A DNA stretch of 64,000 bases, taken from positions 48,847-112,846 of the forward strand of contig JAAFIA010000003.1 of assembly GCA_013298545.1 (NCBI GenBank), written 5' to 3'. The translations under genes and the position numbers were made by a program. The notes beneath the pieces are model-generated. The model was not told the origin of the DNA, ran no database searches, and was given only the letters and a program-made list of their open reading frames with translations. Of this stretch, positions 12,991 to 57,931 are shown one piece after another. Each line of letters begins with the position of its first letter. Position 1 is the first letter of the stretch. The stretch is from Bacteroidota bacterium (GTDB lineage: Bacteria; Bacteroidota; Bacteroidia; Palsa-965).

Positions 12991-13001
12991 AAATACAACT
13001 T

Positions 13002-13167
13002 AGTAACTGTTTAAATTTTATCCTTTAAGTTTGTTATGCGCCTTTTTGCACCATACTTCGTTGCGTTTTTTGACCGTAGGCGCGCTGCTATGGCCTTCAA
13101 AAACGCGCCTCGTCTGGCACAAAAAGCCATCATAACAATTCTCAAAAACAAATTTTAAACAGGCTCT
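13002..13167. repeat. Dispersed long-palindrome repeat, copy A
   Basis: Near-identical interior to 47041-47218 and 57751-57915; 3' arm ...AAACAAATTTTAAACAGGCTCT; arms inverted relative to each other; left terminal 7 nt diverged (AGTAACTGTTTAAA). Confidence 0.93.
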
Positions 13168-13173
13168 TATATA

Positions 13174-47006: not shown

Positions 47007-47040
47007 GTTGACCTAACTAAATTAATTGTTGTATCAACTA

Positions 47041-47218
47041 AGAGCCTGTTTAAATTTTATCCTTTGTTCCGAAGCTTCGGAATTGTTATGCGCCTTTTTG
47101 CACCATACTTCGTTGCGTTTTTAAACCGTAGGCGCGCTGCTATGGCCTTCAAAACGCGCCTCGTCTGGCACAAAAAGCCATCATAACAATTCTCAAAAAC
47201 AAATTTTAAACAGGCTCT
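47041..47218. repeat. Dispersed long-palindrome repeat, copy B (with 13-nt longer left arm containing the 16-bp perfect palindrome TTCCGAAGCTTCGGAA)
   Basis: AGAGCCTGTTTAAATTTT...AAATTTTAAACAGGCTCT terminal inverted arms; interior shared with copies A and C. Confidence 0.95.
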
Positions 47219-47251
47219 AAAAACCGAACATGAAAAAGTTCGGTTTTTTTT
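47219..47251 (+). terminator. Intrinsic terminator immediately after repeat copy B
   Basis: AAAACCGAAC-atgaaaaa-GTTCGGTTTTTTTT. Confidence 0.8.
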
Positions 47252-57695: not shown

Positions 57696-57750
57696 TTTTT
57701 CCTGCTGACATACTGTTGACATAAGGCGGTTCTACTTTTGATCCGAACTT

Positions 57751-57915
57751 AGAGCCTATTTAAATTTTATCCTTTGAGTTTGTTATGCGCCTTTTTGCAC
57801 CATACTTCGTTGCGTTTTTTGACCGTAGGCGCGCTGCTATGGCCTTCAAAACGCGCCTCGTCTGGCACAAAAAGCCATCATAACAATTCTCAAAAACAAA
57901 TTTTAAAAAGGCTCT
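57751..57915. repeat. Dispersed long-palindrome repeat, copy C
   Basis: AGAGCCTATTTAAATTTTATCC...AAACAAATTTTAAAAAGGCTCT; interior near-identical to copies A and B. Confidence 0.95.
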
Positions 57916-57931
57916 TAAAAAAACAGATACC

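Follow-up and report, generated by a model that had tools for sequence, protein, structure and literature searches.

The repeat described here is best read as a member of an old and, as far as searched, undescribed MITE superfamily, mobilized in trans by several IS5-type transposases and carrying a core that appears to be under selection. We put the probability of the whole account, in which a nonautonomous MITE of about 163 bp would be moved in trans by IS5 transposases, its palindrome maintained by arm-to-arm correction and its internal loop kept by selection, at roughly 0.8. The window, that is, the whole stretch of 64,000 nucleotides that was analyzed, contains three copies, all on the plus strand and each enclosed by a perfect 3-bp target-site duplication.

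The copy at 57752 to 57914 is 163 bp long, as delimited by a blast self-match and an nhmmer model spanning positions 1 to 163; it has the terminal repeats GAGCCTATTTAAATTTT and GAGCCTTTTTAAAATTT and lies between TTA duplications at 57749 to 57751 and 57915 to 57917. The second copy (47042 to 47217; 176 bp) carries a 13-bp accessory palindrome insert (GTTCCGAAGCTTCGGAA) and is flanked by TAA at 47039 to 47041 and 47218 to 47220. The third (13003 to 13166; 164 bp), with TTA at 13000 to 13002 and 13167 to 13169, has hybrid ends, GTAACT on the left and GAGCCT on the right, and despite its perfect duplication it reads as a chimera of two subclasses. The preliminary description had reported the three copies, their intergenic position, a long imperfect hairpin and the lack of a transposase in the window. 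All of these points hold, and the exact units and perfect duplications, which it did not report, can now be added. The contig that contains the window has neither a DDE_Tnp_1 nor a Y1_Tnp gene, and both strands of the element fold far better than shuffled sequences. For the 57752 copy, the plus strand reaches −53.4 kcal/mol (z, −6.7) and the minus strand −66.6 kcal/mol (z, −8.2), with no shuffle equaling either. The outer 13 nucleotides of the two arms are identical in 58 of 82 copies and differ by one mismatch in another 15.

The count of three, correct for the window, is an undercount for the genome, a 4.53-Mb draft of 154 contigs. A 25-base core pattern gave 64 matches there versus none for the reversed-pattern control, the terminal repeat gave 127 versus 5 for its control, and the genome holds at least 60 copies. 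Full copies measure 163 bp, with variants of 176 and 189 bp carrying one or two 13-bp palindromic inserts; a few are shortened, either by internal deletions (98 and 129 bp) or to their ends only (50 to 59 bp). The ends-only elements, with TNA at their edges, include L058 (148 to 199), L102 (601 to 651), L098 (560 to 618) and L099 (606 to 664). Lone single ends of 16 to 25 bp, preceded by TNA and with the rest of the element absent, were seen at L085, L088, L090 to L093, L096, L097, L100 and L103. The palindromic inserts (GTTCCGAAGCTTCGGAA, TCCCGAAGGGATTCCTTCGGAA and CCTGCCTCCGCC...GGCAGG) occur at several points within MITE copies (window positions 47066 to 47083, L118 and L142), a pattern that would fit insertion of short palindromes into hairpins. 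At up to four loci (L023, 1 to 337; L087, 604 to 857; L083; L104), a second repeat, starting CGCATGCGCGTTAAGTTAAA, meets the accessory hairpin of the MITE (CCCGAAATTTCG) at one and the same position, as would be expected of an insertion sequence with that hairpin as its target.

Evidence that the element has transposed comes first from its edges. In 78 intact copies with both ends, drawn from the host genome and others (G000, G004, G006, G007, G014, G016, G035 and G051), an exact 3-bp direct repeat adjoins the element in 66, compared with a mean of 28.9 and a maximum of 42 when right flanks were shuffled. The duplication is specifically 3 bp, a 4-bp match being found in only 1 of the 78. Among 67 full-length copies with matching flanks, the duplicated sequence was TAA in 36, TTA in 26, TCA in 2, ATA in 2 and TTT in 1. 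The outermost six bases differ between copies yet change jointly at both ends (GAGCCT, 28; GTAACT, 10; GAAGCT, 10; GAGGCT, 9; GAAACT, 4; GAGGTT, 3; GAAGTT, 2; GAATCT, 1). At the one site tested, an orthologous element-free locus was found for the 57752 copy in the congener G003, which has the same two flanking genes and a spacer compatible with simple insertion: G003 reads TTTTGATCC-AACTTTAAAACTAAGCTCATG where the window reads TTTTGATCCGAACTTA[element]TTAAAAAAACAGATACCATG. With genes called by a simple open reading frame rule, none of 91 copies (48 in the host genome and 43 in others) falls inside a long open frame. The 3-bp duplications, the empty orthologous site and the intergenic copies identify the element as a MITE rather than a REPIN: it is short, noncoding and dispersed, with terminal inverted repeats and a duplication of fixed length. 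The earlier suggestion of a nonautonomous mobile element is thereby borne out, further supported by copy number and by IS5-family elements with the same ends.

A TNA-type 3-bp target duplication is typical of the IS1031 group of the IS5 family. This duplication, together with ends of the form GARNCTGTTTAAA, points to the IS5 family; the IS5 ends of Porphyromonas gingivalis have a similar form (PMC4596501). A search for insertion sequences sharing the ends of the MITE, as the preliminary description had proposed, found them in several genomes. In G041, an IS5_3-type element (225 bits) ends in TTAA|GAAACTGTTTTGAATTTAA; at contig edges in G004 and G016, an IS5_3 C terminus is followed by GAGACTGTTTAAAATTTAT or GAAACTGTTTAAAATTTAT, respectively, and then by TNA outside. 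In the complete genome G317, the IS5 copy L240 ends in GAACTCATCTTGACTTTTT, matching the MITE end of that genome at 19 of 19 bases, and GAAGCCATCTCAAAA is common to the MITEs of family f9 and the IS5 elements of G051 and G016 (15 of 15), with a close form in G018. The host genome itself has a broken IS5_3 gene with ATAACTGTTTAAA at its surviving end, a match to the GTAACT subclass of its own MITEs. End matches between MITEs and resident IS5-family insertion sequences run to 13 to 19 bp, and positions 3 to 5 often differ. Beyond the ends, no similarity was found when eight MITEs were compared with nine IS5-family sequences, several of them partial, and derivation of the core from inside an insertion sequence was rejected on that comparison.

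Given that resident IS5-family insertion sequences carry the same ends and have nothing else in common with the MITE, it seems very likely that IS5-family transposases with matching ends (NCBIfam transpos_IS5_3 type) move it in trans. A strong IS5_3 match was absent from most MITE-bearing genomes tested, which are drafts, where multicopy insertion sequences collapse. The 154-contig draft of the host yielded no intact IS5 transposase, only the broken IS5_3 remnant and an IS1182 gene, and its DDE_Tnp_1 matches sit on other contigs than the window's (C122 and C90). With only a broken IS5 gene having a matching end, the family in this genome may no longer be moving, or an active insertion sequence may be unassembled.

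The element is not confined to the three loci first noticed. A covariance model built from 38 copies detected it in 43 of 395 class genomes (22 of 197 genera and 19 families), with nearly every match being full length; a phylum-wide sample contributed additional f54-family genomes and two that lie beyond the class. Independently of the model, the flanks of 31 loci that it had selected, mostly distant and newly retrieved ones, were examined, and 17 had exact 3-bp duplications where the model ends. A named genome collection gave no matches to a pattern exact for the host genome's version, a result with no bearing on distribution. Core-like hairpins with other ends were also seen: L211 (205 to 363) has very different ends (CTAGTGTCGCAACCCGTAAGTT) and lies near a copy of the GAAGCC type, both in one GC-rich genome, and L246 and L253 of G600, from another class, end in GGGCGTGTTGACAATC and GGTCGTGTAGACAATC. 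At locus L009, the element adjoins a gliding-motility-type C-terminal domain, which hints that the carriers are Bacteroidota.

Across the class, the palindrome is conserved as a structure. In an alignment of 46 copies with 39 consensus pairs, 36 pairs have changed at both positions. Pairing cells make up 92.9%, compared to 73.3% in shuffles; for covariation, the score is 0.512, versus 0.157 in shuffled alignments and at most 0.134 when slid. Such covariation is commonly taken as a sign of selection on RNA. There is, however, another possible source of it, the copying of one arm from the other, as happens in quasipalindrome correction, a known process. In copy L114 of G004, the left arm is identical to the right over 36 of 36 positions, compared with 28 or 29 of 36 in its siblings, and in copy L110 the inner right stem has been rewritten to the left-arm form. 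These two natural copies, the only ones in which we saw it, show that an arm of the palindrome can be replaced by a duplicate of its partner, and covariation alone is therefore no proof of an RNA. We propose that such correction keeps the palindrome intact and would let both ends change together, and that joint change could in turn let the MITE track different IS5 transposases.

One part of the hairpin behaves differently. An internal loop in which CGTT faces GCCT, noncomplementary apart from one G-C and one U-G pair, shows the highest conservation anywhere in the element (1.50 to 1.85 bits for CGTT, columns 60 to 63, and 1.23 to 2.00 bits for GCCT), compared with a mean of 1.15 bits at the ends and 0.8 to 0.85 bits in the inner stem and apical part. 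The motif is kept in elements with at least three different IS5-type end sequences. Its survival of arm correction and its persistence across elements with different IS5 ends suggest that the loop is under selection, and it is probably where a host factor or the transposition complex binds.

Might the element instead be primarily an RNA? In that case it would be a mobile structured RNA carried in neighboring mRNAs and selected as a terminator, an RNase III site or a stability hairpin, with mobility secondary. The extreme fold stability on both strands, the class-wide covariation and the conserved internal-loop motif speak for this reading. There are also two faint hints of minus-strand use: plus-strand A-C mismatches, which are G-U on the minus strand, outnumber G-U cells (54 versus 32), and in other genomes, with related copies counted separately, the (−,−) arrangement outnumbers (+,+) by 17 to 5. 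However, those same wobble cells occur on both strands, orientation to flanking genes in the host genome is even (17 ++ versus 15 −−), and copies there do not favor gene ends (8 divergent and 5 convergent sites). Arm-to-arm copying explains the covariation without selection on RNA, and no Rfam family scores above its gathering threshold; in the window only a tRNA does, and the best Rfam match to the element, MIR5998 (34.7 bits against a gathering score of 180), was rejected as a low-scoring fold-back. The preliminary suggestion of a structured RNA has a strongly conserved, covarying structure in its favor, but given the copying observed and the unbiased orientation in the host genome, we consider an RNA function as the primary role improbable.

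A further alternative takes the family apart, into several unrelated MITEs that arose by separate internal deletions of different IS5 elements, the shared core being convergence or overreach of the model. Different end types do exist, MITEs normally arise lineage by lineage, and distant core matches are modest (50 to 100 bits), with rough E values. Against this, the core is found in no insertion sequence tested; the length (159 to 164 bp), the order of helices and the internal-loop motif are all kept; and those 17 of 31 distant loci with exact duplications had been picked solely by the model. Independent origins are, in our judgment, quite improbable.

The preliminary description had also raised a REPIN-like family, which would be mobilized by a RAYT (Y1/HUH) transposase recognizing the hairpin. 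REPs, like the present element, are repeated extragenic palindromes; they differ in being 20 to 40 bp long, tagged GTAG or CGTC, tied to Y1 enzymes and without DDE-type terminal repeats (PMC3733652, PMC6006769). A connection is suggested by the Bacteroidetes RAYT subclass 2.6, whose members lie next to atypical secondary structures that recur at other places in the genome (PMC6006769), and by the presence of Y1 genes in 16 of the 17 genomes searched, two of them in the host genome, on C77 and C21 rather than on the window's contig. These two RAYT-type genes (L281, 1459 to 2031, and L295, 1411 to 1959) have the motifs YIHNNP and YIHQNP, like subclass 2.6 (PMC6006769). They are flanked by REP-like palindromes of their own, CCGCAGGATTTGCAAATCCTGCGG and CCTCCTCGTTTGCAACGAGGA, which differ from the MITE, and across the 17 genomes the covariance model detected no MITE at any of 30 Y1 loci (best hit, 17.8 bits; E, 0.1), on which a RAYT/REPIN origin was rejected. 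With exact 3-bp duplications, which are not a Y1 product, and IS5 ends as well, mobilization by a RAYT is hardly credible.

By kind, then, the element is a MITE, and what sets it apart is its age, its breadth and an inverted pattern of conservation in which the core is kept and the ends are replaced. The Correia core (GCGTTG...CGCCTTG) has what we take to be a possible resemblance to that of the MITE. The Correia/NEMIS elements of Neisseria, of about 107 or 155 bp and reported to bind IHF and RNase III (PMC2229807, PMC2649163), are similar in size range, terminal repeats, target duplication, highly base-paired transcripts and high copy number; they differ in host and in their 24-bp repeats with TA at the termini. 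MITECca01 of Cardinium (PMC9769881) is likewise a high-copy, mostly intergenic Bacteroidetes MITE that has little more than its ends in common with its parent (a few bases besides), but that parent is of the IS982 family, the element is about 240 bp, and it is reported to be unique to one strain. MITE239, MITE464/PgRS and BrickBuilt of P. gingivalis are IS5 derived (MITE464 has terminal repeats GAGACTGTTGCA) and, like the present element, are noncoding, from the same phylum, and equipped with IS5-type terminal repeats that match resident IS5 elements (PMC4596501). Their similarity to one another or to insertion sequences is reported to be limited to the terminal repeats, and BrickBuilt has tandem repeats and variable target duplications (PMC4596501). 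By that description they differ from the conserved 163-bp single hairpin, constant 3-bp duplication and cross-family core seen here. Phages gave no match to the host genome's element, and PLSDB plasmids gave none to it or to the versions of G098 and G217. Literature searches on the end strings and on MITEs of Bacteroidota gave no relevant description among the matches listed, the end strings retrieving unrelated primers. As judged against Rfam, phages, plasmids and the papers searched, the earlier statement that the element is undescribed stands.

Going further, one can envision a single ancient hairpin core, present across the class and slightly beyond it, that has repeatedly switched transposase partners through swaps of IS5-type ends aided by arm-to-arm copying, with the loop dedicated to recognition by a protein of the host or of the transpososome. 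We regard this extension as tentative, possible rather than probable. The usual view of a bacterial MITE is of a remnant left by a single insertion sequence in one lineage, with a passenger for its interior. Here, it is the interior that is conserved and the ends that are replaceable, across 19 families of one class. Arm-to-arm copying offers a simple route by which both ends of such an element could change together, and it also cautions against taking covariation alone, in a long palindrome, as evidence for an RNA. A conserved core allows us to ask what a MITE core is for and how MITEs persist once the parent insertion sequence is gone.
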